Of a stretch of DNA of 64,000 bases, positions 8,545-61,021 are shown one piece after another. The notes below the pieces were generated by a model. That model worked only from the letters and a program-made list of their open reading frames with translations. It was not told the origin of the DNA and searched no databases. Source of the stretch: a virus. The DNA is taken from IMG/VR virus record IMGVR_UViG_3300032607_000700, positions 1 to 64,000 of that record. One strand, 5' to 3'. The position numbers and the translations under genes were made by a program. Each line of letters begins with the position of its first letter. Position 1 is the stretch's first letter.

Positions 8545-8739
8545 TCAATTGTAGTCAGTATCGAGTTCGAATTGATCGTCGTAACGGGCCTCGCCGCCGG
8601 TGTCTCTGCACCACTGCTCGTACTCCACAGCATCCTCTTGCTCACGCCGACGCACAATAGCGTAGGCTTCAGTGTAGGAGGTGCCTTGGGCCATCAAGTC
8701 TACCATCTGTGCTTCAAACTCTTCCATGCTGTAGAACAT
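8545..8739 (-). CDS. Unknown 64-residue acidic protein
   Basis: AAGGAG precedes the ATG at 8739 (MFYSMEEFEAQMVDLM). The protein is helical and acidic, with a Tyr-rich end (EYEQWCRDTGGEARYDD). Function unknown. Confidence 0.6.
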   Translation of the reverse strand: MFYSMEEFEAQMVDLMAQGTSYTEAYAIVRRREQEDAVEYEQWCRDTGGEARYDDQFELDTDYN

Positions 8740-8749
8740 AGTGTGCTCC

Positions 8750-8965
8750 TTAATAACTCTGGTGGCTGTGACCAATTCGGTATACTGCACCACCTGCCTC
8801 TATACCCAAATCTGCGCTTGCATACTCTGCGGTATAGAGCTCTGGAAGCATACACTCTGCAAACTCACCGTCCGAGTAATAACCGCTCTCAGTCATTACC
8901 AACTTGGCACCTGGCGGCAACTTGCTCAAAGCCTCGATCATTTGTTTTACTGTGATTGCTGTCAT
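8750..8965 (-). CDS. Unknown 71-residue protein
   Basis: AAGGAG precedes the ATG. The opening TVKQMIEALSKLPPGAKLV is typical of a small phage- and plasmid-borne family of unknown function. It is the first gene after the promoter at 9000. Confidence 0.65.
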   Translation of the reverse strand: MTAITVKQMIEALSKLPPGAKLVMTESGYYSDGEFAECMLPELYTAEYASADLGIEAGGAVYRIGHSHQSY

Positions 8966-8999
8966 ATTCTGCTCCTTGTGTGTTGCTGTCTATGTATGT

Positions 9000-9028
9000 A
9001 TTATAATGCCTTTTGGATAACCGGTCAA
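9000..9028 (-). promoter_or_regulatory. Early sigma70-type promoter
   Basis: TTGACCGG, 17-base spacer, TATAAT, followed by ACATACATAG. The -35 box overlaps the TGA stop of the upstream gene at 9025, an economical arrangement also used at 9783 and 12025. Confidence 0.85.
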
Positions 9029-9366
9029 CCTTTGATGTGCTTCCTAGCCCATTCAGCCACAGCGGCTTGGAACCCGTCTTTGTAGAAGTCAATATGAGGA
9101 GTCACGTAGTCGTAGAGACGATGCATTGATTCTCTAGCGGATTCGACATAGGCGGCCTTTTTAGCTTCGGACCACTTGGGGCCACCGGGCCAATAGACCA
9201 GCATGGCCGAGGCAGCTGCCATGTTCCAAACGTAGGCCTCTTTTGTTATCGTATCAACGATCTTAGAAAAGTCCGCCGACTTCTTAGGAACACCATGTTT
9301 GGTCAAAGCCAATTCTACAATCCTCTTCGCTTCGGCCTTTGCGGCCCTTTGAGATATGACTTTCAT
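9025..9366 (-). CDS. Unknown 113-residue basic helical protein
   Basis: AAGGAG precedes the ATG. The sequence starts MKVISQRAAKAEAKRIVEL, has a hydrophobic centre (WNMAAASAMLVYWPGG) and a Lys/Arg-rich end. No family recognised. The compact single-gene unit with its own promoter resembles small early host-takeover genes. Confidence 0.6.
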   Translation of the reverse strand: MKVISQRAAKAEAKRIVELALTKHGVPKKSADFSKIVDTITKEAYVWNMAAASAMLVYWPGGPKWSEAKKAAYVESARESMHRLYDYVTPHIDFYKDGFQAAVAEWARKHIKG

Positions 9367-9388
9367 CTTCTACTCCTTGTTGCTAAGT

Positions 9389-9417
9389 ATTGTATCAGCG
9401 TTTCACGCTCTTGTCAA
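9389..9417 (-). promoter_or_regulatory. Early promoter variant
   Basis: TTGACA, 17 bases, TACAAT on the minus strand, overlapping the end of the upstream gene. It faces the gene at 9025-9366. Confidence 0.65.
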
Positions 9418-9732
9418 GTGGTATTGGAACCCTTGTGCAGACTCTTTCTTAAAAATTCCTTCGTTAGCCCAGTCGCCTTCCAACAGCTTCAGCATCTTTG
9501 GATCTGTAATGAATGCACCGTGTTGCACCTTAACAGCAGCACTCTTTTTACCGTAGCCTACATCGTAAACTGTGCCGCTGATCACCATCTCCAACGCCAA
9601 CTTGATGCGATCCATACGGATCTGCTGTGCCTGTGAGTATAGCGTCTTGTTGGCATGGTTGCGCATACGACGGTCCTGCAGGGCAAAGAACTTGTTAGCG
9701 GCTTCTTTAGTGTCTAGCGTTACGGTGTGCAT
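9403..9732 (-). CDS. Unknown 109-residue protein
   Basis: AAGGAG lies upstream of the ATG. The product starts MHTVTLDTKEAANKFFALQ and is basic in its first half (RRMRNHANK). No domain recognised. It has its own early promoter at 9758. Confidence 0.6.
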   Translation of the reverse strand: MHTVTLDTKEAANKFFALQDRRMRNHANKTLYSQAQQIRMDRIKLALEMVISGTVYDVGYGKKSAAVKVQHGAFITDPKMLKLLEGDWANEGIFKKESAQGFQYHLTRA

Positions 9733-30582: not shown

Positions 30583-31569
30583 TCATTCAAACGAAAATAA
30601 GCTAGTAAATGTATTTGCTGTGTTTGTACTTGATTGCAAGTCCCAGGACAGCACACCCAATAGATTGTCAATCTTTTGGTCCACCACAGTGGCTTCCATG
30701 TTAGCATCATCAAACGGCAGTTCTTTAAACCAGGCTGGCAAATGATGCTCGTCTGTGGGATACCCAATACTGGTCCACCCTAGAGCATTGCTCTTGAGTT
30801 TGCATACAATGGTTTTCATACCATCCACAATCTGCATGGAGTAATTGTCTGAATTCATGCGTCGCAATGTGTTCCAGTTCAATGCAGCTCGAACATGTCC
30901 GGGCATGTTGGACTTGCCATTTTTTTCTTCTAAATTGCCATACTTGGTCAAGTTGTTCACACGCTTGGGTGAGCCTTTTTCCCAGCCCGGGCGTTCGGTA
31001 AATTTGTATTTGAATTCTCTGATACATTCCACAATTTCTTCTCTCTGTGTTCCTGTTAGTACCTTATTTAGAAGATCGCTAAGGAACTCTTGAATAACCA
31101 CCGGAGTATCACTGCGTTTTAGATCCAGACCCATGGCCTTTACCTTGCCCGGTCGGCCATTTACATCCACACGCTTGTTTTCTTTGTCAATGTACAGCAC
31201 AGCATAACGCTTCTTGGTAATAAACAAACCGGTACGTGCTACAATTTCTCGACCACCACGAATCACAGATCCCATGTCTCGTGGACAATGAAATGCCTGT
31301 TCCATGAATCCAGGAAAAGAATCATTCACTTGTTCGGCTATGGAGTTGTACAATGCAATACAAGTTTCTGCAGACCACTCCATTCTACCATCTTCAACTT
31401 CAGCTTGAACCATGGGCCACGCTGAAAAGTAACACGAATCTGTGTTATGTACTAAAATATCATTTGCAAAGAAGAACGGATCTTGTTTGTCAATGCTTAT
31501 ATCATACACATAGTCGTCAATTTCGCCAAGGCATTCGACGCTCTTTACTGTTGTTCTTTCAATATCCAC
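30583..31569 (-). CDS. 43: Split-intein C half fused to the DNA polymerase C-terminal domain
   Basis: Translation starts at GTG 31569. Residues 1-42 are an intein C half: VYDISIDKQDPFFFANDIL then VHN, with the terminal Asn before Thr. The extein TDSCYFSAWPMVQAE completes polymerase motif C (YGD-TDS). KKRYAVLY and the thumb region follow; the end SLFSFE resembles the clamp-binding tail of T4 polymerase. It must be trans-spliced to the product of 31768-32733. The start overlaps the decayed nuclease frame. Confidence 0.9.
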   Translation of the reverse strand: MDIERTTVKSVECLGEIDDYVYDISIDKQDPFFFANDILVHNTDSCYFSAWPMVQAEVEDGRMEWSAETCIALYNSIAEQVNDSFPGFMEQAFHCPRDMGSVIRGGREIVARTGLFITKKRYAVLYIDKENKRVDVNGRPGKVKAMGLDLKRSDTPVVIQEFLSDLLNKVLTGTQREEIVECIREFKYKFTERPGWEKGSPKRVNNLTKYGNLEEKNGKSNMPGHVRAALNWNTLRRMNSDNYSMQIVDGMKTIVCKLKSNALGWTSIGYPTDEHHLPAWFKELPFDDANMEATVVDQKIDNLLGVLSWDLQSSTNTANTFTSLFSFE

Positions 31570-31784
31570 TGGATTACTTTCTTAATTATTTCATGCTTAT
31601 TTGCTTTGAACTCGGATTCCAATATTACCAACGTCTTGAATCCAAGGTCCTGAACAGTCTGTAATTTTAGCATATCTCGATGCCTGATTTCAGCCGCAGT
31701 TTTACCTCGCATGATTGCAGAATCCGCATATACTGCTGGGTTAGCATGCCAGTAATCACCGTTAAATTCATGTAGATAGGCAAA
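31545..31784 (-). pseudogene. Remnant of an intein-borne Vsr/EDxHD-type homing endonuclease
   Basis: A frame with no start codon reads LHEFNGDYWHANPAVYAD and continues KTAAEIRHRDMLKLQT and LGFKTLVILESEF, the pattern of Vsr-like homing nucleases. It overlaps the end of the intein N half by 17 bases and the start of the C half. It looks like the nuclease that once linked the two intein halves, now out of frame. Confidence 0.75.
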
Positions 31785-32282
31785 TTATCAAATCATTTGG
31801 CAGGATATCAACAGGCTTAACTTCAATCAGGAATCCGTCACGATCTACCATTACGCTGTGATCTTCTGTCACTGTAACCGACTTATCATTATGCAATGTT
31901 ATTTTGTACAGTTTCTTTTTAGTTTTATGTCGCATAACATAAGAAATCCTACTCAAAACTGGCGCATCGTCGAACGCATTAAAGCCGACTACTTTAGCAA
32001 ACGACTGAACGCCGTATTCTTTATCACCATTACGTTCGTGTTGCTGGCACTGATTATATAACTCTGCAATTGTGATCTGTTCCGAATCGGTACGAATCAG
32101 TGTATCTCCGGTTACACTGTCGCCATATATGATACTTTTACCACTGTGATCATACTCGCCTGTGATGCATTCATTCACATATGCATCCATGTGCTTGGCA
32201 ATACTGCGACCCACCAAGGTTGTTGACTGTCCAATACGCTTGTCAAAGAATCTGCAGCCGGGATTCAAGATGGCACCATACA
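31768..32282 (-). CDS. 43: DNA polymerase exon 3 plus intein N half
   Basis: This exon follows the group I intron and continues LYGAILNPGCRFFDKRIGQ, then RSIAKHMDAYVNECITG and KSIIYGD, the first half of motif C. The intein N half begins with Ser1 (SVTGDTLIRTD), has block B VTVTEDHSVM, and ends after about 116 residues at TGA 31768. Joined to exon 2 it gives a 233-residue polypeptide, with a 62-codon-plus-1 junction that restores the reading frame. Confidence 0.88.
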
Positions 32283-32546
32283 CATTTATGTTCAGCTAAC
32301 TTCGCTAAAGTTAGTTCGTTTAGATTTACTAAACCGCCTTATATTTCTATAAGGATCAGACTATATCACCATCCAATTATTGGATGCCCCCCGTTTCGAT
32401 TCGCTTGAATCTACGTCTTTCGACTAGTCGTTGAACCTTCATATTGCTATGCTTGGCTGCTGATTGTCTTCAACTTAATGGTCAGAGTTTCCAGCAATTA
32501 GAGGAGTTATTCAACTATTGTTACCAATAGAGGTCGCAGTATCTTT
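32283..32546 (-). other. Group I intron in the DNA polymerase gene (264 nt, no ORF)
   Basis: The minus strand has the conserved core: ATTGCTGGAAACTCTGACC (P), AATCAGCAGCCAAGC (Q/R), GGTTCAACGACTAGTCGAAA (P7 side) and GATATAGTCTGATCC (S). The 5' exon ends in T and the intron ends in G. Removing 32546-32283 gives TCG-TTG-TAT-GGT, that is Ser-Leu-Tyr-Gly, the invariant polymerase motif. It is of the IA2-like type found in T4 td and nrd genes. Confidence 0.93.
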
Positions 32547-32733
32547 ACGAATTTAAATTAATTTTCTTAACCAATTGGCGCTTATCCCAAAACACTATCT
32601 GTTTTTTGACTTCTTCTTGATTTTTGTGAAATATTTTATTGTCGGAAATAACAAGATCATTTCTTGCACAAAACTCCTTTAACTCAGCAGCAGTGCCTTT
32701 TTCTAGCAATGTATTGAGATCGTTAATATTCAT
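32547..32733 (-). CDS. 43: DNA polymerase exon 2 (start of the middle polypeptide)
   Basis: GAGAGGA stands just before ATG 32733, which overlaps the end of the homing endonuclease gene, so a new polypeptide starts here. It begins MNINDLNTLLEKGTAAEL and ends FWDKRQLVKKINLNS, the motif B region of family B polymerases, followed by the group I intron. Without splicing, translation stops at TAA 32545. Confidence 0.85.
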
Positions 32734-33703
32734 CTATTCCTCTCTTGTTGAAAATTTGTCGGTTGTGCTCGTTTTGTACTTCTTTAGTCTCGAAAATAAT
32801 CTCCGGGGACCAATTGTCTGATGAAATTCTTACGATTTGAATTCCTTCTTCTAAGCATATCTGATGCTTACTGATATCATTTTTTATCGATGATTCTTTT
32901 CGATGCCAATATTCTCCATCAACTTCTACTAATAATAGCATGTCTGACAAGTAAAAGTCAAATTTTTTCTCCCTAACGGGATATTGAGTGACGTATCTAA
33001 TATTATTTTTGTTTAAAAATTGTTCAAATTGTATTTCTAAACTTGTAGTTTTTTTATTTGGGAATACTAATTTGTTTTCTTTTAAATATTCTTTTCTCCG
33101 AATACTCAAGTTGAGTCGATATTTTTCAAATTCGATCAAGTCATCTTTACGTCTTCTCCACGCCTGTTGTTGATTTAATGTTTTTTGTTGTTTTACATCT
33201 GGCAGTAAGACAAGTTTTTTACCTTTTTTTGCAATAGAAAGATTTCTTTTAGTTTCGTCAGTGTGTGTTACTCCAGGCTTCCCTATTCTGGATTCGTGAT
33301 AACACTTTTGGCATTGCATGCCGTTTAAAAAATTCCCCAAGTTCACTGTATAAGTCCCATGGTGTAAACATTTTACTTGTATTTGATCAGTTCTCGTTAA
33401 CACTTTATTTGGAAGAGCAACAATAGAATAATTGTTAGTTTCTGCTTGATATACTTCTTCTAAAGATATAATATTGTTAGTATTAATATGATTCCTACAT
33501 CTAACGTTATCTACATTGTCTCGAAATCTTTTGGTAATCGTTACTGTTTTGCTACAAATTTCGCACACAGGTATTGGATCACTCCTTAGGTATAGTTGTA
33601 TGGCTCCTGATAAATCAGAAATATTTTCTTTACCTCCGTAGTACTCTATTAATCGTTTAAACTGTCGGGGATACTTTTTCTTAAAATCATTAACAAAATT
33701 CAT
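32723..33703 (-). CDS. Homing endonuclease interrupting the polymerase gene (EDxHD/Vsr-like)
   Basis: The 326-residue protein has two zinc-ribbon-like Cys pairs (VCEICSKTV; MQCQKCYHES), a basic NUMOD-like middle (TDETKRNLSIAKKGKK), and a C-terminal nuclease domain: SLEIQFEQFLNKNNIRY, KKFDFYLSD, LLVEVDGEYWHRK. Its AT-rich codon use differs from the polymerase. It sits exactly between two polymerase reading frames, like MobE between gp43A and gp43B of some Aeromonas phages. AAGGAAAT precedes the ATG. Confidence 0.85.
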   Translation of the reverse strand: MNFVNDFKKKYPRQFKRLIEYYGGKENISDLSGAIQLYLRSDPIPVCEICSKTVTITKRFRDNVDNVRCRNHINTNNIISLEEVYQAETNNYSIVALPNKVLTRTDQIQVKCLHHGTYTVNLGNFLNGMQCQKCYHESRIGKPGVTHTDETKRNLSIAKKGKKLVLLPDVKQQKTLNQQQAWRRRKDDLIEFEKYRLNLSIRRKEYLKENKLVFPNKKTTSLEIQFEQFLNKNNIRYVTQYPVREKKFDFYLSDMLLLVEVDGEYWHRKESSIKNDISKHQICLEEGIQIVRISSDNWSPEIIFETKEVQNEHNRQIFNKRGIDEY

Positions 33704-33719
33704 AATATTTCCTTTATAT

Positions 33720-33727
33720 TATTTATC
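33720..33727 (-). promoter_or_regulatory. Late-type promoter box GATAAATA for the homing gene
   Basis: GATAAATA, one base from TATAAATA, lies 16 bases before the homing endonuclease ATG. Freestanding homing genes of T4 often carry their own late promoter. Confidence 0.4.
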
Positions 33728-33738
33728 CTGTTACTTTT

Positions 33739-33759
33739 CAGATTAATTTTTTTGACTAA
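33739..33759 (-). repeat. Scar repeating the polymerase LVKKINL segment
   Basis: Read in a frame shifted from the polymerase ORF, this 21-base stretch encodes LVKKINL, the same seven residues found intact in exon 2 (RQLVKKINLNS). The two copies differ only by synonymous changes. It overlaps the frayed C terminus of the first polymerase ORF and looks like a co-conversion or insertion scar. Confidence 0.6.
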
Positions 33760-35371
33760 TGGATAGTCTGTCAGGTATTGTGATACCGCTTGACAAGTCG
33801 TTCCATAGGTTTTTAGTTTTCTGCATGTCTAGACGTTCACTATACCAGCGTTTGAGCAAGCCTGGGATTACACCTTCTTTTTCGTAGGTGAATATGGTAC
33901 CATTGGCACTGAGGATCCATGGTCGATTAGAGTCAAACAGCATCTTCCAAATTTCAGCAGCTGAGTGAACAGTTTCCTCGCCATCCTGCCAGTCTATGGT
34001 GATCTCTGTGCCACGTTGCTGTTCCATCACAGCAGTGTATTCTAAGCTGGCAAACAATCCTTCCCATGCAGCAGCAAAGCTATCTCCGCCAGCTATTTTG
34101 TCTTGGATTAGCCGGTCAGTCAGTGTGGGTCTGAGTTGGCCGACAATGGTTTCTGGACCCATGTTAAGGGCCCGAATAGCACTGGGATAGAGCGAGTTGA
34201 TGTCGATGCTACCAATCCAGTCGTGGATCCCTTTTTTGGGATAAGCAACATAGGCACCTGCGGCTTGCGTGTCATCATCTGTGAGTCTTTCTTTACGGTT
34301 AGGAACTACCATACCACGTTCGTGAGCTTCAATAATAATTGCTTGCTCAGTCACAGCCACTGCACCCATTGTGGTCGGCAACAGCACGGTATTTTCATGT
34401 GCCAGGGTATTGGCCAAGCTCAAGAATTTAAGTTTCTTGTCCAGCTTGCCGATCAACATTGTGTCCTGGCGATTGTAATCAATAAAGATCTTGAAGTTCT
34501 GGTTGTACAACTGATCCAGTGTGCCTTCAAATGCAGTCTTACGACCAATTTCTTCGTATTCACCAATGGCGTCTAAGGCATAGCTGTGACGTTCTTCATA
34601 AGTGTATTTGCGATACAGTTGCATATAGTCCATATGCACTCGACCTACCAAGTCATAGGTTTGATTCTCTGCACCAAATCGTTCAAACATACGTGGCTTG
34701 GGAAACTGATTCCATAAGCACATACGTCTAGTGTCATCTTTGCTGAGAACTCTGGTGATTCGATTCACAGTGTAGGGAATGTCGTAACCTTCCGAGTTCC
34801 ATCCAGTGAGAATGTCTGCATCTTCAATAAGATCCAGAAATGTGTTCAACATGTCTGCTTCTTTTTCAAACATAAAGCAGTTGTCAAACTCTGCTGCAAT
34901 CTCTTTGGCAGTTTCCATGCTCATATGACGTGGAGGTACAGCCAGCGTCACAATTTGATCCAGCCAATCCATGTACACAGAGATAGCAGTGATTGGGTTG
35001 AACGGATCTGTCACAGGTGAGAAACCACGTTTGGGATCAAAGTCTACTTCAATGTCATAGAATGCTGTGTGCAGTTGAGGGCCGTCTTTGCCTTTGTAGT
35101 TTTCCTCTAAACAACGAAAGATAGGGTTAATATCACTTTCGTAGATTTTCTTGCTGGAGTGCATACGCACTTCCTTGCGAAACTCTTTGTTGTTGCGTGA
35201 GGAAAATCTACTCACTGGCGTGTCGTAGATGCTACGAAACTTGCCTTTGGGGTCGTCGTAGTAAAGAACGTAGTTGGCTGGATACTCTTGGTATACCCGT
35301 CGGCCATCTCGGCGTTCAACCACGTGAATTCGATCATGTGCTCGATCATATAAACAGTCCACATAACTAAT
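33743..35371 (-). CDS. 43: DNA polymerase N-terminal polypeptide (exonuclease and start of palm), likely AUU start
   Basis: The protein holds Exo I FYDIEVDF, Exo II ADILTGWNSEGYDIPY, Exo III YNRQDTMLI and polymerase motif A SIDINSLYPSAIR, then stops after MQKTKNLWNDLSSG plus a short frayed tail. AAGGAG at 35379-35384 is seven bases before an ATT codon at 35371 that would give MSYVDCLYDR, the usual N terminus of T4-like polymerases. The GTG at 35362 is 16 bases from the SD and would remove SYV. About 540 residues. Confidence 0.88.
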   Translation of the reverse strand: MSYVDCLYDRAHDRIHVVERRDGRRVYQEYPANYVLYYDDPKGKFRSIYDTPVSRFSSRNNKEFRKEVRMHSSKKIYESDINPIFRCLEENYKGKDGPQLHTAFYDIEVDFDPKRGFSPVTDPFNPITAISVYMDWLDQIVTLAVPPRHMSMETAKEIAAEFDNCFMFEKEADMLNTFLDLIEDADILTGWNSEGYDIPYTVNRITRVLSKDDTRRMCLWNQFPKPRMFERFGAENQTYDLVGRVHMDYMQLYRKYTYEERHSYALDAIGEYEEIGRKTAFEGTLDQLYNQNFKIFIDYNRQDTMLIGKLDKKLKFLSLANTLAHENTVLLPTTMGAVAVTEQAIIIEAHERGMVVPNRKERLTDDDTQAAGAYVAYPKKGIHDWIGSIDINSLYPSAIRALNMGPETIVGQLRPTLTDRLIQDKIAGGDSFAAAWEGLFASLEYTAVMEQQRGTEITIDWQDGEETVHSAAEIWKMLFDSNRPWILSANGTIFTYEKEGVIPGLLKRWYSERLDMQKTKNLWNDLSSGITIPDRLSISQKN

Positions 35372-49853: not shown

Positions 49854-52800
49854 CTATGTTGCTTCATCTTGAATAATTTGCAAAGCCTGATTCCAGTTCA
49901 TGCGTTGAGTTGATAACGAACTCAGTATCCAGACCATGGCTTCTTCAAAACTGTTATTTTCAATTGGATACAATCGTTCCATATTGATCATGGTGTATTC
50001 TTTATCTAATACATCAAATTTACTAACTGAATTAAATCTAGGCAAATTTTTTATATCATTGTGTGCTGCAGAGAACTCGTAGAACCTATTAAACACTCGT
50101 TCAGATTGTGTGCTTGGATCTTCCGGCATTAATATTTTAATGACATTTTGTTCGTGTTTTGCATATACATTTGCGTCGGCGCCTGATCCTAATTTTTTAT
50201 AGCCGAGAGATTTAAACTGTTTGTCTATTTCTTTAGCAGTATCAGTACCGTACTCGGCCTCCGCCACAGCTGGTTTAATTCTGCTGAATTCGTATCTAAC
50301 CAGGGTGCCAGTGTCTGCACGGAGCGCCCTATATCCCCAGTCTCGGGCATAACGCTGAACCAGTCGGTCATATAGTTTAGCACGACTCTCACTGTTTTGA
50401 CCAGGCTCAACTTCTTTGCTGGCCGAGAAAAATAACTTTTGTGGTTTGTTTTTCTTAATAAATTTTTGGATAGCTGTCAATACAGTGGCAAATATTCGTT
50501 GAGCATCACCGTCGCCGGTTACTTCTTGACTGTTGTTTCTGTAAAACTCAACTCCCCATGTGTCATTTTCATCATCCTCTCGATTGAACATGATGCTTAA
50601 ATTTGTGCCATCAGGTAGTTTGGCCAACATATCAACATCACCATATTCACTTTTTTCAGATTTGGTTTTGTAAGGTTGGTCAAAGGCTTCCACCATGGCC
50701 CCTGGCAGGAAACTGGCTGCTATGTCTCTGCAACTGTTGAAGATGTCGGCATTGTCAGTGACCTGTAGATTGAATGGATAGTCTGTGACAGGATGCTGTG
50801 TGGGGTCTTGCCACCCAGCATAACATTTTTCAATGCCATAGTCAGTTAACAAATCAGTACAACTCTCACCATGCCGCTCATCCATGTCATGCACACACGG
50901 GCTCAGGGTAGTGACCATGATAGCATTGGACCCAATACGACCGTGACGTTTGAGATGATTATCTATGGCCACTCGTTCAGCATGGCGACGTGTTCCGTCG
51001 GGGCCTGGCAAGTTGATACCATAGGTGTGATTGTTTTTGTTGTCAATCAAACAAGCAGCCACACGTCCATACTTGTTTGGATCTGACTCATGTCCACGAT
51101 GTATCATGCTGATGCACTTTTCCAGCACCGTATCTAGTTTACCTAGTTTTGTAATCTCTCGGCTCTCGCCCAGGTCCTCACGTAATCGTTGTTCTAGCAC
51201 TGTGATGTTTTCTGACACTGATTGAGCACGTGGTCTTACTGAGAAGTTACTGGCATCCACTTCTGGATTTGCCTGCATTGCAGTGGCCACCCATTCTTGA
51301 CCCTTACGCCAGGCTTCTGCTTGATTTGCTGCCTGTATCACAAATACTGATTGGTTGGAAGATCTATTGTATACTTCCCACTGTGTTTGTGCCAATGGGA
51401 TATCTAACTCAACCTCTTCTACTCCTGGAATTGGGGTGGATGTGTATTGGCTTTGGCTTGCTGCCTCACCCATTTCTGGTACTACTGTTACTCCGGCCTG
51501 CATACGCCCAGGATTACTACGCATCCAGTTTATGGCCACACGGTTAGCATCACTCTGCACATTGCCCACACCTGAGAAACGATGTATTTCTTGACCGTCT
51601 GGATCTAAGATCAACCAGTTGCCGGTGAATGTTTGCTGGCCTTGCTCTGGACGAGTTAATGTTTGTGGTGCAAAGTTCTGAGCCACATCGGGTTCAATAT
51701 CAATGATGCCACCTTGTGCTGCATCGGCTTGTTGAGTTCGTACGCCATACAATTCAGGAGCTTCACGACGTTGATCAATAACTGAGCGAGCTTCTACTCC
51801 AGCAGCCATGCGGTTGGTCTGAGCCAGCTCTGCCACACTTAACCCATCACTTCTTCTAAACACTTCCCAAGGTCCTGGACCGGTCGGTGTTAGCGTGTTG
51901 CGGTCAACAGGCGGTGCAGCAGGTTCAATCTCTTGAGCAATTAACTCTAATCCAGAGCCCGAGTTTCTTGCATTGTAGTCCTGGATCCAGGCCTCAGCCC
52001 CAGCCTGGTAGCTAAATCTTCTAGGCCCGGCATTGCCTATAGTTACATAACGATCAAGTGGTGGCACCCACACTCCCCAGTTGCCGGTTGTTGTACTGCC
52101 TTGTTCTGTTGGTGTAATACTTTGGAATTTAGAGTCATATGCTCGGATTGGAGTGGCAGTCAAGTCCGTGGCGTAGTCCCATTCAGGAAATTCTTTCTTG
52201 CCTGCTGCAATGGCTTGTGCTGGATTGGTGGCCACCACCTCCACAGATCCGCTGTAGCCTGGGCGACCCACACGCCACACGTATTTTTCACCACCTGTGG
52301 GGTCTTTGGCAACTTTACGTTCTAGTTGTGCTTGTTTAATAAAACTCTTCAATGCTGCCTTGGGCAATTCGCCAGCTGAATACTTTGCAAATATTGCCAA
52401 GGGATCTGTTTCACCCTCGGGTGCCAACATCTTGTACAGCTTCTTGAGATACTCTTGTCTATATGCTTCAGGATTCAATGCAGCACTCATGGCCACGGTG
52501 AAACGCAACAAGGTGTTTTCAATCTTTTCAAAGTTCTCATCTAACCAATCTCCACCGGGGCTACGGAACTCAATATGCCCATCCTTGGTATTGATACTGG
52601 TATACTTGTCTGTGCTTCCTGAATGTATGGCCTTGGTGGCCAGCTGATTCATGCCAGATTTCATTGTGTCTAGAATTTGTTTAGCATTGGCAGGAGTGAT
52701 TTTTCCCTTGATCTTACTGATTGCAGATTTTGCATATTGGTTAGTGGATCTTCCAAAATTGTCCAACACATATTCGTCACCCATCAGCAGGGCTAATTTC

Positions 52801-55115
52801 ACATAGTCCAACTGATCTATACTGTAATTGGGCACTGAAATATTGATGTGCAAGCCAGTTGATTGGTTGGTATAAACACCCATGCGTCCAGCCCAGGCCT
52901 TGACAGCATTTAAATCTTTAAGCAGTTCATCTATGGGCATGGGAGGTGATACAAACTCCAGTCCTTCGTCGCCGTCGTCGTTGCCTTCCAAACTGCCGTC
53001 GGGTTCTACTATATAAAACTGATTTTTTGGTCCAGGTCTTTCTCCAGACTGATGATATCTTGTGTTGACCCGCACTTCACGACCCACAGCCTGACTGAAT
53101 TCGTCAGCTACCATCTGTGTGTCGACACTGTCGTTGCCCTCGTTAGGGTTACTCCAATGCGGCCATTGAATATCGTATTCGTCTTCAACGTTGCTCATAA
53201 GTCCAAGACCTTCAGCCCTCAACCAGTCGCTTTCGTCGTAATCGCCGTATTTTTCTTCACGATACTCATCCAGAGCTGATTGATAATAGTCATTGTTGGG
53301 ATCACTATACACCTCTCTCACAAACTCTTCAAGTAGCTCGTTTCGTTCATCTCCAGTTAACTCGGTGGGATTCCATTCATCATCGTTTAGATTGTTCTGA
53401 ACCCAATCACGAACAAAAACTTCACCGTCACTATCCCAGTCTTTGTCTATCTTTACCGTGAGCCATTCCTGGAAATCATTCTCCATTTTTTCACGCAATT
53501 CTCTAACATCTCTGCGACTGTTCATGTCACCGTCATTAAAAAACGCCACAGCATCATCAATGCTGCTGCAGCGTGTATCAAAGTCATAGTCTGCTTCTAA
53601 TTCATCATTGCTTTGGTCGCTGTCGATGCCTGGCACAATCATTTCAAATTCCATACCAGCAATGGCACCAGTCTTGGCTGCTTCCTTGCGCAGACTCTTC
53701 CCGCCCATGTTGATTTCAAACAGATCCTTCTCTTTGAACTCGCGCAGCAGCTTGTTTAATCCAGCTGTGAGCACGGCCGGATGACCTTGTGAATCTGTTT
53801 TTAATCCCAGTTTGTTGGCTTCTTTGCCCACCGCACCGGGACGCACATCCCGAGTCAAGGCCATCACAAACCTTGGGTCCCGAGCCTGTGCCTTTGTGGG
53901 GATATAACCAGATGCTTCTTCCAGTGTGACACCATCAAACATCTCAGGTTGTTCTTCGGCCCAATCTCTCATGATACGGCCGGCCATGGCGTTGGCTTGG
54001 TCTTCCCAGGGGCTACCAGTTTTGCCAGCATCTATGGGCAGAGGATTTGTTTCATCCTGCTGACGATGTGTCATTTCATGAGCCATTGTGCGAAGTATAT
54101 CCAACACATGGCGACCTGCGGTGGCCAAAATCAATGTGTTGGTGTCTGAATCATATTGCCCAAAACTACCATTCTCTTGACTCCAGTCGGGTGTGGTTTC
54201 CAAACGCAATTTGGGTGGATTCTCTAATTCAAGTTTATCCACACAACTGGTATAGAATCGATGTAGAATCTTTTTCAAGTGATCAGTATCCACACTTTCG
54301 TCCACTTGTTCAGATTCAGTACCAGCAGAATGATCTTGACCAGCATATGCAGTGCCCGGATACCAGTAATCACGCATGCCGTAATTGACTTTCTTTCTGG
54401 CCGCAGGTTTACGATGTAAACTTAACTCACGATCTTGTATTGCTGTCTTGGCATCTTTTAATTCACCAATGCAACCCATGTTTCTCAACAGTTTGAACAC
54501 AATGTTTTCACAACCAAACTCGCCAGTTTTCTCTAGGCCAGTTTTGCGCATTGTTTTGATCTTGTCCCACAGTTGATTAACAGCATCTGCATTGCCGGAC
54601 TTGATAGCCGAATGTATTCTAGCATCAAGATCAGCTGTTTTGTGTTGTACACAAGAGTCATCTATGCGAGCACGACGTTGCTGTGGAACTTGTACCCAGT
54701 CACCATTCTTCACGCTGTAGATGCCTTGACTCACATGCTTTTGATCACTAGGCTGCACATACAGTTCTACTGGTACACCGGCGATCTTTATATTGTGAGT
54801 ATCATTAAATTCGTATTTTTTTGCATTGAACAGTTCTTGATACACCGGATCGGCAGGCATGTCCACCACAAGATGTAGATCAATGTCTGAGTTTTTTGTA
54901 TATGAATAAGCCGCATTAGATCCAGACACTGTGATATCTTTTACTTTGAGATCATCTACTCCTAAGAATTCTTGAAAAAACTCTGCTATTGAGAGCAATT
55001 TTTCTTTAACCTCAGGCAACAAGTGTTCGTCTCTGCCCCACAAACTGGGGTTAAGACGTTGATGGAATTTTACAGCATCCGCGAGATTATAGTTATCAAG
55101 ATCATGAAATTTCAT
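49854..55115 (-). CDS. Giant (1753-residue) polyvalent multi-enzyme protein
   Basis: Modules in order: nucleotidyltransferase (VSGSNAAYSYTKNSDIDL, residues 63-80); HExxH metallopeptidase-like (MAHEMTHRQQDE, about 344-355); amidoligase-like domain (AGMEFEMIVP at 486 to STGLHINIS at 752, then IEFRSPGGDW near 848); four related small beta domains (for example TGNWGVWVPP and TQWEVYNR, about 940-1290); cytidine-deaminase-like domain (RRHAERVA 1376-1383, SPCVHD ... ESCTDL 1405-1422); a domain shared with the 1261-residue polyprotein (about 1487-1612); and a kinase-like N lobe (LGSGADANVYAKHEQNVIK). It resembles the 'polyvalent proteins' described in phages and conjugative elements. The start MKFHDLDNYNLAD lies next to GATAAATA. 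Confidence 0.8.
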   Translation of the reverse strand: MKFHDLDNYNLADAVKFHQRLNPSLWGRDEHLLPEVKEKLLSIAEFFQEFLGVDDLKVKDITVSGSNAAYSYTKNSDIDLHLVVDMPADPVYQELFNAKKYEFNDTHNIKIAGVPVELYVQPSDQKHVSQGIYSVKNGDWVQVPQQRRARIDDSCVQHKTADLDARIHSAIKSGNADAVNQLWDKIKTMRKTGLEKTGEFGCENIVFKLLRNMGCIGELKDAKTAIQDRELSLHRKPAARKKVNYGMRDYWYPGTAYAGQDHSAGTESEQVDESVDTDHLKKILHRFYTSCVDKLELENPPKLRLETTPDWSQENGSFGQYDSDTNTLILATAGRHVLDILRTMAHEMTHRQQDETNPLPIDAGKTGSPWEDQANAMAGRIMRDWAEEQPEMFDGVTLEEASGYIPTKAQARDPRFVMALTRDVRPGAVGKEANKLGLKTDSQGHPAVLTAGLNKLLREFKEKDLFEINMGGKSLRKEAAKTGAIAGMEFEMIVPGIDSDQSNDELEADYDFDTRCSSIDDAVAFFNDGDMNSRRDVRELREKMENDFQEWLTVKIDKDWDSDGEVFVRDWVQNNLNDDEWNPTELTGDERNELLEEFVREVYSDPNNDYYQSALDEYREEKYGDYDESDWLRAEGLGLMSNVEDEYDIQWPHWSNPNEGNDSVDTQMVADEFSQAVGREVRVNTRYHQSGERPGPKNQFYIVEPDGSLEGNDDGDEGLEFVSPPMPIDELLKDLNAVKAWAGRMGVYTNQSTGLHINISVPNYSIDQLDYVKLALLMGDEYVLDNFGRSTNQYAKSAISKIKGKITPANAKQILDTMKSGMNQLATKAIHSGSTDKYTSINTKDGHIEFRSPGGDWLDENFEKIENTLLRFTVAMSAALNPEAYRQEYLKKLYKMLAPEGETDPLAIFAKYSAGELPKAALKSFIKQAQLERKVAKDPTGGEKYVWRVGRPGYSGSVEVVATNPAQAIAAGKKEFPEWDYATDLTATPIRAYDSKFQSITPTEQGSTTTGNWGVWVPPLDRYVTIGNAGPRRFSYQAGAEAWIQDYNARNSGSGLELIAQEIEPAAPPVDRNTLTPTGPGPWEVFRRSDGLSVAELAQTNRMAAGVEARSVIDQRREAPELYGVRTQQADAAQGGIIDIEPDVAQNFAPQTLTRPEQGQQTFTGNWLILDPDGQEIHRFSGVGNVQSDANRVAINWMRSNPGRMQAGVTVVPEMGEAASQSQYTSTPIPGVEEVELDIPLAQTQWEVYNRSSNQSVFVIQAANQAEAWRKGQEWVATAMQANPEVDASNFSVRPRAQSVSENITVLEQRLREDLGESREITKLGKLDTVLEKCISMIHRGHESDPNKYGRVAACLIDNKNNHTYGINLPGPDGTRRHAERVAIDNHLKRHGRIGSNAIMVTTLSPCVHDMDERHGESCTDLLTDYGIEKCYAGWQDPTQHPVTDYPFNLQVTDNADIFNSCRDIAASFLPGAMVEAFDQPYKTKSEKSEYGDVDMLAKLPDGTNLSIMFNREDDENDTWGVEFYRNNSQEVTGDGDAQRIFATVLTAIQKFIKKNKPQKLFFSASKEVEPGQNSESRAKLYDRLVQRYARDWGYRALRADTGTLVRYEFSRIKPAVAEAEYGTDTAKEIDKQFKSLGYKKLGSGADANVYAKHEQNVIKILMPEDPSTQSERVFNRFYEFSAAHNDIKNLPRFNSVSKFDVLDKEYTMINMERLYPIENNSFEEAMVWILSSLSTQRMNWNQALQIIQDEAT

Positions 55116-57472: not shown

Positions 57473-58168
57473 TTATGGTCGTTTTTGCACTTGTACAGTT
57501 TTGCGAGTCAGCCCCGGGCATACTATTGCCAACATGGTAAGATGTTTGAGATCATGGTGTTCTACAAAATAATGCTCTCGGCTCCATGCCGAATACGGAG
57601 ATGCTTTACCCCATCCAAGACCTTGTGTGATAGTAGTATCAGTAAACCATCTTTCAGTAACAGGACTGGCCACAAGATCCGGAGTCTGATGGCTGATCCA
57701 GTTCCACACTGCTTGTTTTTTATCTCTAGATAATCTCTTTTCCTTGAGATAAGTTCTATATGGATATTTGGGTTGATTGATCAACATGATCACATCCTTA
57801 GGATACGCCAGCACTGCTTGTTTAGCACTGGATTCTGTTGGATAATTTCTAAACAGCGTATCGACATCTTTGATGTCATTGGTGTAAATATGAAAAGTAT
57901 TGTACCCATATGTGCGGTGAATAAATTTACTATCCAGAGTTTCTAATACATCCACCGCATGCAGTATGTTTTGTTTGGTCAAATCTGATGTCAATTGGGA
58001 CCCAATTGACGACTTATATTGATCACGTTTACGTATACGTTCCAGGATCATTGGGCGAGAAAGACTACTCAACAACCAAGCATCATCAATATGTAGACTT
58101 ACCACATATTCATACTTGCCAAAATAAAGTGATCCGCGTGGTTCACACTGCCATTGAGGTAGTAACAT
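57473..58168 (-). CDS. Unknown 231-residue protein
   Basis: The protein starts MLLPQWQCEPRGSLYFGKY and shows DKKQAVWNWISHQTPDLVA and a C-terminal basic end. It overlaps the Clp C-terminal gene by 26 bases. I see no motif that assigns it. Confidence 0.55.
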   Translation of the reverse strand: MLLPQWQCEPRGSLYFGKYEYVVSLHIDDAWLLSSLSRPMILERIRKRDQYKSSIGSQLTSDLTKQNILHAVDVLETLDSKFIHRTYGYNTFHIYTNDIKDVDTLFRNYPTESSAKQAVLAYPKDVIMLINQPKYPYRTYLKEKRLSRDKKQAVWNWISHQTPDLVASPVTERWFTDTTITQGLGWGKASPYSAWSREHYFVEHHDLKHLTMLAIVCPGLTRKTVQVQKRP

Positions 58169-59339
58169 GCTGTGGTGCCTTTAGTTCAAATACAATTTTA
58201 TCCGCCTGCAATTCTACATTCAATGCACAATCAGTCAGCTGTTCAAACAAGATTCGTCTGCTTAATGGTACACGAATCAATTCATCAATTTTGCGATTCA
58301 ACGGACGAGCACCCATCTTGCTGTCGTAGCCTTGTTCTGCCAACAATTCAATCACAGGCTCCGAGAAAAACAATCGGATATTCTTTTCTGCCACACTAGA
58401 TTTCAGTTGGTCCAAGAACTTCACAACAATCTTCTTGATAGCCAGTGTATCCAACTTGGTAAACTTGCAAATTTTGTCAATACGATTACGTAGCTCTGGG
58501 CGGAAGAACTCTTTCATTGCACGATCTTCTTCGCCAGATTTCTCTAAGTCAGTACTGAATCCAATGTTGTTGTTTTCATTGTCTCTGGCACCCAGGTTAG
58601 ATGTCATGATAATAATGGTGTTTTTGCAGTCTACTCGTTTGCCATTTGCACCTGTCACATGTCCTTCATCCAGCATCTGCAGCAGGATATTGGTAACATC
58701 TGAATGTGCTTTTTCAATTTCATCAAACAAGATCACAGAGAATGGATGTTTACTTAGGTCACTGATAAGTTTTCCGCCGCCTACATTACCATCTTCAAAT
58801 CCCACATATCCTGGAGGTGCACCGATCAAACTGCTGACAGAAAACTTCTCTTGGAACTCACTCATGTCATAGCGTAACAAGTGCATGTCCAAATTTTCAC
58901 TCAATAGCTTGGCTAATTCTGTATTGTGATGAATAATACCGTTTGATGTTTGATACAAGTGGGTCGGAGAATCTACACTTAAATCATAGAATACTGTGTC
59001 GTTGATAGATTCAATGTTGGTCACTTGAATTTTTTCGCCATTGGCTGTGATGATGCATTCTCCAATGATAAGTTCATTTAGAAAAACACAAGTTGTTCCA
59101 CCGTCAATTGAAATTCGATGGTTCCTAGCAGCTTTGACTATGCTACCGTTACTAAAAGTAATTTGTAGTCCGATATCATTTTTAGTGACAGCAGCATTGA
59201 TTCTGACCCAGTTGTTTTTTTCATCTTTGATTTTTAATTCAGAATTAAGGAATTGTTCTTGTTCCGGAATAAAATTAAGTTTTTCGTATTGCTCAAGTAT
59301 GGCAAAGAGTTTGCCAATTGGTAATGTTTGTTCGATCAT
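58143..59339 (-). CDS. clpA: Split-intein C half fused to the ClpA-like D2 domain
   Basis: AGGAG precedes the ATG. Residues 1-139 are intein: IVKAARNHRISIDG (block B-like), NDTVFYDLSVDSPTHLYQTS (block F) and GIIHHN, with Asn before Thr. The extein TELAKLLSENLDMHLLRYD continues the second AAA+ domain: LIGAPPGYVGFEDG (pore loop), ILFDEIEKAH (Walker B), MTSNLGARD (sensor 1), FFRPELRNRID and GARPLNRKID (sensor 2). Only after trans-splicing with 59453-61021 does Walker A (GPTGTGK-T) become whole. Confidence 0.92.
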   Translation of the reverse strand: MIEQTLPIGKLFAILEQYEKLNFIPEQEQFLNSELKIKDEKNNWVRINAAVTKNDIGLQITFSNGSIVKAARNHRISIDGGTTCVFLNELIIGECIITANGEKIQVTNIESINDTVFYDLSVDSPTHLYQTSNGIIHHNTELAKLLSENLDMHLLRYDMSEFQEKFSVSSLIGAPPGYVGFEDGNVGGGKLISDLSKHPFSVILFDEIEKAHSDVTNILLQMLDEGHVTGANGKRVDCKNTIIIMTSNLGARDNENNNIGFSTDLEKSGEEDRAMKEFFRPELRNRIDKICKFTKLDTLAIKKIVVKFLDQLKSSVAEKNIRLFFSEPVIELLAEQGYDSKMGARPLNRKIDELIRVPLSRRILFEQLTDCALNVELQADKIVFELKAPQHVTTSMAV

Positions 59340-59417
59340 CTGAGTCTCCTATTAGGTAAAGTATCTACGTATGTATTATGCTGGGTGGATTGTGTTTGAA
59401 ATGTACTCGTCGGAAGT

Positions 59418-59442
59418 AATAAGCACTCGTCAAGTGCTTATT
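59418..59442 (-). other. 10-bp perfect stem-loop between the Clp halves
   Basis: AATAAGCACT and AGTGCTTATT pair around a 5-base loop, ten bases after the stop of the N-half gene. There is no U-run, so termination is uncertain. Bases 59340-59417 also contain a -10-like CATAATACATACG with no -35 match. Confidence 0.6.
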
Positions 59443-59452
59443 GAACATCTAG

Positions 59453-61021
59453 CTAGATTAGGTTATATTCTTTAGCAAACTTATACATATCGTTGGTCAT
59501 CTGTACAGTTACTTCTTGGTCGTGGGCTAAACATTTACCTGTGCCAGTTGGGCCCAGGAACAAGAAACTTGCCATGGGCTTGCCTTGTGTACCAATTCCA
59601 GAGAAGTTGATGTACACACGTTCCAGTACTGAGTCCACGGCTTGTTCTTGTCCATAGAGCTTTTGTTTGATGTTGCTTTCTAGATCCACAATCTTCAAAC
59701 TGCGTTCATTTTGCAGTCTGTCAGTGGGCACGCCAGTTACCCGTGCCACTTGTTCTTCAATCATGCTTTTGTTCACAGTGACTAGACCTGCATCTTTAAC
59801 ACGTTCTCTAGCACAGGCAGCATCCAGCAAGTCAATGCTTTTGTCTGGATTCTTCTTGTCATGAATATATCGAGCAGCAAGATCCACAGCAGCAGTCATG
59901 GCTTCTGTGTCAATCAGCACATTGTGGAATGTTTCCAAGCGTGGGCTTAGTCCAATTAGAATTTTTTCTGTGGTGTCACGATCTGGTTCATCAATGCTGA
60001 GACGATAGAATCGACGCATGAGTGCTCGATCTTTCTCAAATGATTCGTAGTATTCTTCCCAAGTTGTGCTGGCAATAACTTTCAAATGGCCTTTGGTAAT
60101 TGCTGGTTTCAGCATGTTGGCAAAGTCCAAGCTACCAGAACTACCTGCTCCTGCACCTTTCATGGTGTGTGCTTCGTCCACAAACAAGATACACTTTTTC
60201 TTGGCTTCCAGTGCAGAGATCACTGCCTTGAACTTTTCTTCAAAGTCGCCGCGATATTTAGATCCTGCTACCAAACTGCCAATTTCCAGACTCCATATTT
60301 CGTGATCTTTGAGGAACTCAGGCACACGATTTTGTGCAATTTCCTGTGCAAGGCCTTCAATGATAGCAGTTTTGCCCACACCAGGATCACCCACCATGAG
60401 TACATTGGCTTTGAAACGACGTGCCAGCACAGCAATCATTTCGTCTAATTCTTTTGAACGACCAATCAACGGCTCCAGTTGGTCAGCAGAGGCCATTGCA
60501 CTTAGACTGGTACAATATTCTTCCAACACTTCAGTAGCTTGTTGATGATTCATACCTGCGGCTGCTCGTTCTGACTTGTAGTTCCTGGTCCAAAAATCCA
60601 CAAATTCAGCTTTGTGTACGCCGTATTTCAACAAGAAGTAGTGTGCATTGCTGTTGGTCTCACCCATGATGGCCAAGTACAAGTCAATGGTCACAACTTG
60701 TCTACGTCCTGTAAACAACACCTGAGTCAGCGCACGATTAAACACTCGTTCCAATGCAGCGGTCTTGCGTGGAGTTAAATCTTCTCCAGCGCGAATCAGA
60801 CTTTGTAGGCTGTCCAGATAGCCACACAGTTCAGTTTCCAACATGGCCACGTCACAGCCATATTTGGCTAGAGTTTTTCTAAATGAATCATGTCTTACTA
60901 GACTCAACAGTAAATGTTCTGTTAGAACATACTCATGATGCCAGGTACGTGCAATCTGCACCGCACCTTCAATGATGGCGTCAATTTCGGGATTGTCTTG
61001 AATTTGGTTTGAATTGCTCAT
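59453..61021 (-). CDS. clpA: ClpA-like N terminus and D1 domain ending in a 26-residue intein N half
   Basis: The N domain is Clp-like (HHEYVLTEHLLLSLVRH). D1 has LIGRSKELDEMIAVLARR, VGDPGVGKTAIIEGLA (Walker A), GSKYRGDFEEKFKAV and ILFVDEAHTMKGAG (Walker B). D2 begins LYGQEQAVDSVLERV and reaches FLFLGPTGTGK, where the intein starts: CLAHDQEVTV, ending after 26 residues at TAG. Clp ATPases unfold proteins for ClpP or alone. A late phage copy may remodel host proteins (inference). Confidence 0.92.
   Translation of the reverse strand: MSNSNQIQDNPEIDAIIEGAVQIARTWHHEYVLTEHLLLSLVRHDSFRKTLAKYGCDVAMLETELCGYLDSLQSLIRAGEDLTPRKTAALERVFNRALTQVLFTGRRQVVTIDLYLAIMGETNSNAHYFLLKYGVHKAEFVDFWTRNYKSERAAAGMNHQQATEVLEEYCTSLSAMASADQLEPLIGRSKELDEMIAVLARRFKANVLMVGDPGVGKTAIIEGLAQEIAQNRVPEFLKDHEIWSLEIGSLVAGSKYRGDFEEKFKAVISALEAKKKCILFVDEAHTMKGAGAGSSGSLDFANMLKPAITKGHLKVIASTTWEEYYESFEKDRALMRRFYRLSIDEPDRDTTEKILIGLSPRLETFHNVLIDTEAMTAAVDLAARYIHDKKNPDKSIDLLDAACARERVKDAGLVTVNKSMIEEQVARVTGVPTDRLQNERSLKIVDLESNIKQKLYGQEQAVDSVLERVYINFSGIGTQGKPMASFLFLGPTGTGKCLAHDQEVTVQMTNDMYKFAKEYNLI

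Follow-up and report, generated by a model that had tools for sequence, protein, structure and literature searches.

Inteins are thought to split at the location of the endonuclease domain, around residue 100. Natural split inteins with far shorter N-terminal halves (IntN, as opposed to the C-terminal half, IntC) nevertheless form an established group, with IntNs of 15 to 37 amino acids (aa): AceL TerL (25 aa), GOS TerL (37 aa), VidaL (16 aa), and PolB16 (15 aa) (PMC13014065, PMC10189870, PMC11766414). Two break sites, S1 and S2, have been defined (PMC13014065). Fractured genes have also been described; AceL NrdHF, for example, contains a GIY-YIG endonuclease (Dassa 2009, as cited in PMC7891396). 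Here we describe a split ClpA-like gene pair in a 64,000-nucleotide stretch of viral DNA, the window, which comprises positions 1 to 64000 of a 76,495-bp record (IMGVR_UViG_3300032607_000700). Very probably, a mobile split intein interrupts this phage unfoldase, a ClpA-like protein, at its second Walker A motif, with trans-splicing and homing as the predicted activities of the intein. The features of the pair, in window coordinates, are as follows.

59453..61021, minus strand: N gene, 522 aa, made up of ClpA-like residues 1 to 496 and IntN; matches phrog_4871 (1e-136) and TIGR02639 (1.5e-146)
59456..59533, minus strand: IntN, 26 codons (CLAHDQEVTVQMTNDMYKFAKEYNLI), followed by the stop codon TAG at 59453-59455
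59380..59475, plus strand: putative 3'-end remnant of an antisense endonuclease gene, AGWIVFEMYSSEVISTRQVLIEHLARLGYIL and stop, overlapping the IntN 3' end
59340..59452, no strand: spacer between the half genes, 113 bp
59345..59350, minus strand: ribosome-binding site AGGAGA, preceding the ATG of the C gene
58143..59339, minus strand: C gene, 398 aa, made up of IntC and the ClpA extein from Thr+1 (TELAKLL..., the remainder of D2, and ClpB_D2-small)
58923..59339, minus strand: IntC, 139 codons, with LPIGKLF, block-B His74, block-F Asp119/His127, and His138-Asn139
58923..59533, minus strand: whole insertion, 611 bp, whose flanks are contiguous in the empty-site relative L002

The extein part of the first protein contains Clp_N, the D1 AAA+ domain, and the beginning of D2 through GPTGTGK, and its C terminus reads ...LFLGPTGTGK-CLAHDQEVTVQMTNDMYKFAKEYNLI. 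The second protein begins with 139 intein residues, MIEQTLPIGKLF...GIIHHN, and continues with TELAKLL. The ClpA profile TIGR02639 matches residues 12 to 497 of the first protein and 138 to 370 of the second as extein. The break separates Lys from Thr within GPTGTGK^T, the second Walker A motif, and the first such motif, GDPGVGKT, lies whole within the N protein; the spliced junction would read GPTGTGKTELAK. As expected of a natural split intein, the halves reside in separate genes with their own starts and no continuous frame, the spacer having stops in all three sense frames; the same holds for ten other loci. Shine-Dalgarno-like sites also occur upstream of IntC in three of these (L003, L086, and L087). 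The initial annotation had proposed a split intein with a 26-residue N half and a 139-residue C half at this ClpA-like motif, and all of its coordinates and numbers proved correct. Its view that such short N halves are rare needs qualification: they are less common than those of about 100 aa, but IntNs of 15 to 37 aa are an established group (PMC13014065, PMC10189870, PMC11766414).

The two halves together carry the signature of a class 1 intein, namely, Cys1, block-B His74, the C-terminal His138-Asn139 pair, and Thr+1, and Cys1, His74, Asp119, His127, His138, and Asn139 are kept across the IntN and IntC alignments. His74, Asp119, His127, Tyr129, Gln130, Asn139, and Cys84 are invariant in the alignment of 11 IntCs; Cys84 (window about 59088-59090, minus strand; 11 of 11 split members) lies outside the usual catalytic positions. 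When a profile of these 11 IntCs was searched against the PDB, the top matches were all known inteins, i.e., PolB16 (E value, 0.0014), gp41-1 (0.0018), RadA (0.0074), VidaL (6vgv; 0.025), Cat, and DnaE. In nearly all closer pairs, both halves show far more change at third than at second codon positions (window versus L003: IntN, 0.15 at second and 0.65 at third positions; IntC, 0.21 and 0.61), while distant pairs with L099 blur this signal for the short IntN. Such a bias in both halves is what would be expected of selected coding sequence.

The position of the break was deduced from a homologous intein that is not split. A clamp-loader AAA+ protein of the uncultured 484-kb phage genome LR756508 (L113) contains, at GTGK^T, a contiguous 149-aa intein, which scores 47 bits against the profile of the split family (shuffled sequences, at most 8.3). 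It reads CLGYSEMVDVKI-GAVNSNERELR-LPVGRLFELL, and the segment that bears on the break class reads CLGYSEMVDVKIGAVNSNERELR-LPVGRLF. Members of the split family have an IntN of the form CLxxDQEVTVQM followed by a conserved tail, xxDMYxFAxxNLI, and an IntC that starts with MIxxTLPIGKLF. Because the first-helix motif LPIGKLF occupies residues 6 to 12 of IntC and aligns with the unsplit intein, the break is placed after strand b2 and before helix a1, that is, at the S1 site; in an S2 break, helix a1 would lie in IntN, and here the LPIGKLF segment is in IntC. IntN residues 13 to 26 make up the conserved 14-residue tail, which is absent from the unsplit homologue. A scan of viral sequences with the unsplit intein as query returned no relatives.

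The footprint of the element could be read from an uninterrupted relative. A search with the C protein as query recovered 80 viral loci. The closest of them, L002, encodes an uninterrupted ClpA that is 96 to 97% identical to the window exteins, with DNA about 88 to 89% identical. The DNA alignment breaks at window position 59534 and within 4 nucleotides of 58922, and the flanking L002 positions, 8000 and 8001, are adjacent, with no gap at the junction; the insert is therefore 58923-59533, 611 bp. The junction is also uninterrupted in nearly all other loci of the 80.

Relatives of the cassette were found by protein scans and DNA-pattern scans. Seven other distinct ClpA cassettes occupy the identical site (L003/L085, L086, L087, L105, L110, L111/L112, and L099/L108/L109), and three distinct ones (L100/L102, L103, and L106) interrupt the P-loop KAGSGK^TLLA of a shorter protein that is PhoH-like by motif only. 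The gaps between the half genes of these relatives range from about 30 to 1220 bp, and IntN is 26 residues long in most members (range, 26 to 42). No relatives of IntC were found in the bacterial genomes or plasmids searched. In a quick tree of 75 ClpA exteins, in which L099 and L105 have long branches, the intein carriers are scattered, with at least five changes, and the window lies inside an otherwise empty 47-row clade as sister to the empty L002. Intein occurrence on this tree is patchy; carriers and empty loci came from different searches, and their frequencies are not estimates. Between distant carriers, IntC identity exceeds extein identity: 55% versus 37/46% for the window and L105, and 61% versus 41/46% for the window and L086.

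In four of the eight ClpA cassettes (L003, L087, L110, and L111), a convergent antisense open reading frame (ORF) of 360 to 393 aa lies between the half genes, directed toward IntN and overlapping its 3' end, and the gap of L099 holds a distant relative on the sense strand. These five ORFs, in the position known from fractured genes, share a core, D-x(10)-E-x-x-G-(x)3-H-P-x-P, within a C-terminal region, YDLTIPSL.IIIEYHGE.FHPNP...K, that resembles D...E...K nucleases of the Vsr kind. The gap position, this core, and matches to phrog_22677 (unknown function) and, for L110, to the HNH endonuclease family phrog_559 (0.0034) suggest that they encode homing endonucleases. The remaining ClpA cassettes comprise one with an unrelated antisense ORF (L105), one with no gap gene, and the window itself, which retains a remnant only. 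The latter, AGWIVFEMYSSEVISTRQVLIEHLARLGYIL, is identical to the C terminus of the L087 endonuclease (GWYVYEMYSSSVQETRRVILEDFAKLGYVL) at 18 of 30 positions, with a score of 102 against a maximum of 43 in 500 shuffles; without the IntN overlap, it scores 76 against a maximum of 42, and none of 1,000 shuffles scored as high. By this match, the window gap is identified as a deletion remnant comprising the last 31 residues of the putative endonuclease; the window element thus once contained the gene for it, of which only the 3' end survives.

The spacer also contains an inverted repeat, AATAAGCACTtgacgAGTGCTTATT, at window 59416-59440, within the endonuclease remnant. The hairpin folds no more stably than shuffled sequence (z, -0.8), and hence no terminator is claimed. 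The 30-bp gap of L086 (in-frame VILEHFT) was considered as a shorter remnant and is not claimed, since 201 of 1,000 shuffles matched as well. In L105, an unrelated 267-aa antisense ORF (8618-9418, minus strand) separates IntN from IntC where the endonuclease gene would otherwise lie. It gave no Pfam, PHROG, or meaningful NCBIfam match, and tblastn returned hypothetical proteins only. By eye it appears GIY-YIG-like (LYVKTHTITGLKYLGYT), and we suggest that it might be an endonuclease replacement.

A mechanism can be proposed on these grounds. After separate translation of the two half genes, docking of the 26-aa IntN onto the 139-aa IntC would be followed by a class 1 reaction, through Cys1, the block-B His, the His-Asn end, and Thr+1, that would join the ClpA halves at GK-T. 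Excision of the intein parts would leave an intact ClpA. The full element would be a cassette of an IntN gene, a convergent endonuclease gene, and an IntC gene. In a mixed infection, its endonuclease would cleave the DNA of the other phage at the uninterrupted P-loop sequence, and the cassette would be copied in. With its endonuclease deleted except for the last ~31 codons, the window copy should splice but not home by itself. Splicing, endonuclease activity, and homing are all predictions from sequence.

Several observations weigh against this interpretation. The block-B Thr position is Ala71 in 11 of 11 IntCs, a departure from the usual TxxH. The TxxH form of block B is common but not universal, and the His is the required part. 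For IntC by itself, AlphaFold gave a poor model (mean pLDDT, 43.8) that was uninformative on the HINT fold. Pfam gave no match for the putative endonuclease, and PHROG gave a single strong one, to a family of unknown function. The link of the endonuclease to Vsr-like nucleases is weak, with an hhalign comparison to an intron ORF of the window (described below) giving an E value of 0.0067 at a probability of 6%. Its structural model was poor in the nuclease half (mean pLDDT, 52.7), and a fold search gave no match at an E value of 0.001.

Among the alternatives, the one that survives best is that the element is dead, its halves no longer splicing and ClpA being inactive or working as two proteins. 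The endonuclease is already lost, the ClpA extein is recognizable from both genes, and a two-chain form is compatible with the sequence. However, the catalytic residues are complete, each half is in frame, has a start, and shows the third-position bias, and the exteins are 96 to 97% identical to the uninterrupted L002 protein. A Walker A motif cut between K and T gives no plausible ATPase activity, so that D2 would have none without splicing. We regard this alternative as improbable.

Slightly less probable still is that the intein is retained as a regulatory switch, with slow or conditional trans-splicing delaying the activation of ClpA D2. Its position in Walker A makes activity depend on splicing, the invariant Cys84 of IntC (11 of 11) is a conceivable redox handle, and the intein remains though the endonuclease is gone. 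On the other hand, close relatives without the intein indicate that regulation is not generally needed, the use of PhoH by the same split family fits homing to conserved P-loop DNA, and two further split inteins in the same contig, in PolB and in a clamp-loader subunit, point to repeated invasion. The initial annotation had held that the ATPase is off until splicing and that splicing could act as a switch; the first part stands for D2, since with the Walker A threonine located on the other chain this domain must be inactive until splicing, while nothing in the present analysis points to regulated splicing. An assembly or sequencing error (the latter named by the same annotation as a refuting alternative) that artificially broke a single ORF with a contiguous intein at TAG 59453 can be dismissed even though, within the window's own lineage, the insertion is carried by a single contig, given the stops in all three sense frames of the gap, the C gene's own start and ribosome-binding site, the uninterrupted L002 with its precise insert ends, and the same two-gene design in seven further ClpA and three PhoH cassettes, ten distinct loci with gaps differing in length and content.

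A mobile, splicing element thus remains the preferred reading, and the occurrence of the element at PhoH GK^T, together with an unsplit relative in a clamp loader, fits homing into conserved P-loop DNA. More tentatively, and with somewhat less than even confidence, we propose a distinct S1-split phage intein family that travels as a three-gene cassette and invades P-loop ATPases (ClpA D2 and PhoH). On this reading, the 14-residue IntN tail would be a new docking element gained with or after the split, splicing could outlive endonuclease loss, and trans-splicing might possibly be redox sensitive through Cys84. Related elements broken near residue 12 to 26 are available with an endonuclease gene in the early gap, with a remnant, and without either, alongside empty targets and an unsplit homologue, and with this range of forms the question of how early-split inteins arose can be tested directly. 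The role of the conserved IntN tail is likewise a testable question, and at least eight diverse IntN/IntC pairs are on offer for peptide-based protein labeling.

Other genes of the contig are also broken. The DNA polymerase B gene (window 30583-35362, minus strand) is broken at least twice. One break is a group I intron (Rfam RF00028; 32337-32556; 82 bits), which is preceded by a 326-aa endonuclease-like ORF (32723-33703; MTES_1575, 3.4e-8; Vsr, 0.0088; phrog_559). Another is a split intein at a YGD^TDS site; it has Ser1 and Thr+1, and its N part lies in 31768-32283 and its C part in 30583-31569. Between these intein halves (window ~31570-31775, minus strand), an out-of-frame stretch, LHEFNGDYWHANPAVY...KKVIQWILKEQQ, matches Pseudomonas jumbo phage proteins, e.g., of MIJ3/PA5oct (38%, 5e-7); judged by this match, it is the second endonuclease remnant of this genome. 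Outside the window (G000:C1 about 67483-69010; L089 633-2160), a clamp-loader AAA+ subunit contains a third split intein, which has a canonical break near residue 110 and adjoins another nuclease-like ORF (L089 2136-2939). One phage contig thus holds three split inteins of different break types. The window also encodes an unusual multidomain protein, a 1753-aa ORF (49854-55115, minus strand) with nucleotidyltransferase domain, amidoligase, deaminase, and DUF6934 matches.

Our literature search found no paper on an intein in ClpA. Natural split inteins with short IntNs (15 to 37 aa) and fractured genes with endonucleases have already been published; to judge from this search, what is new is the family itself, its sites in ClpA and PhoH, an S1 IntN that bears a tail, the opposite-strand endonuclease gene in an S1 gap, and the remnant. 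VidaL is likewise naturally split and Cys dependent, has a short IntN (16 aa), and breaks right after b2, i.e., at S1 (PMC13014065). It differs in that the IntN here is 26 aa long with a 14-residue conserved tail, the hosts are the P-loops of ClpA and PhoH, and the similarity is weak (E value, 0.025). PolB16 OarG (IntN, 15 aa; IntC, 168 aa) also has the S1 break, and its chain at MQEAKIDIKSLYDSLAKK aligns to the first residues of the ClpA IntC, although this segment alone scores poorly; it is cysteine independent (Ser1/Ser+1) and resides in a DNA polymerase, in contrast to the Cys1/Thr+1 chemistry, longer IntN tail, and ClpA host found here. AceL TerL and GOS TerL are naturally split with short IntNs of comparable length (25 and 37 aa) but break at S2, after the first helix (PMC13014065), and the similarity in IntN length is coincidental because the first-helix motif LPIGKLF is in IntC here. 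Fractured genes share the arrangement in which a putative homing endonuclease separates two half genes, again in phage-like DNA. AceL NrdHF has a canonical ~100-aa break, whereas the break here is S1, and the endonuclease gene is antisense in four of the ClpA loci, on the sense strand in a fifth, and reduced to a remnant in the window. The unsplit intein of LR756508 is homologous to the split family and has the GTGK^T insertion point in common with it, yet it is a contiguous 149 aa, lacks the IntN tail, and has a clamp-loader host.

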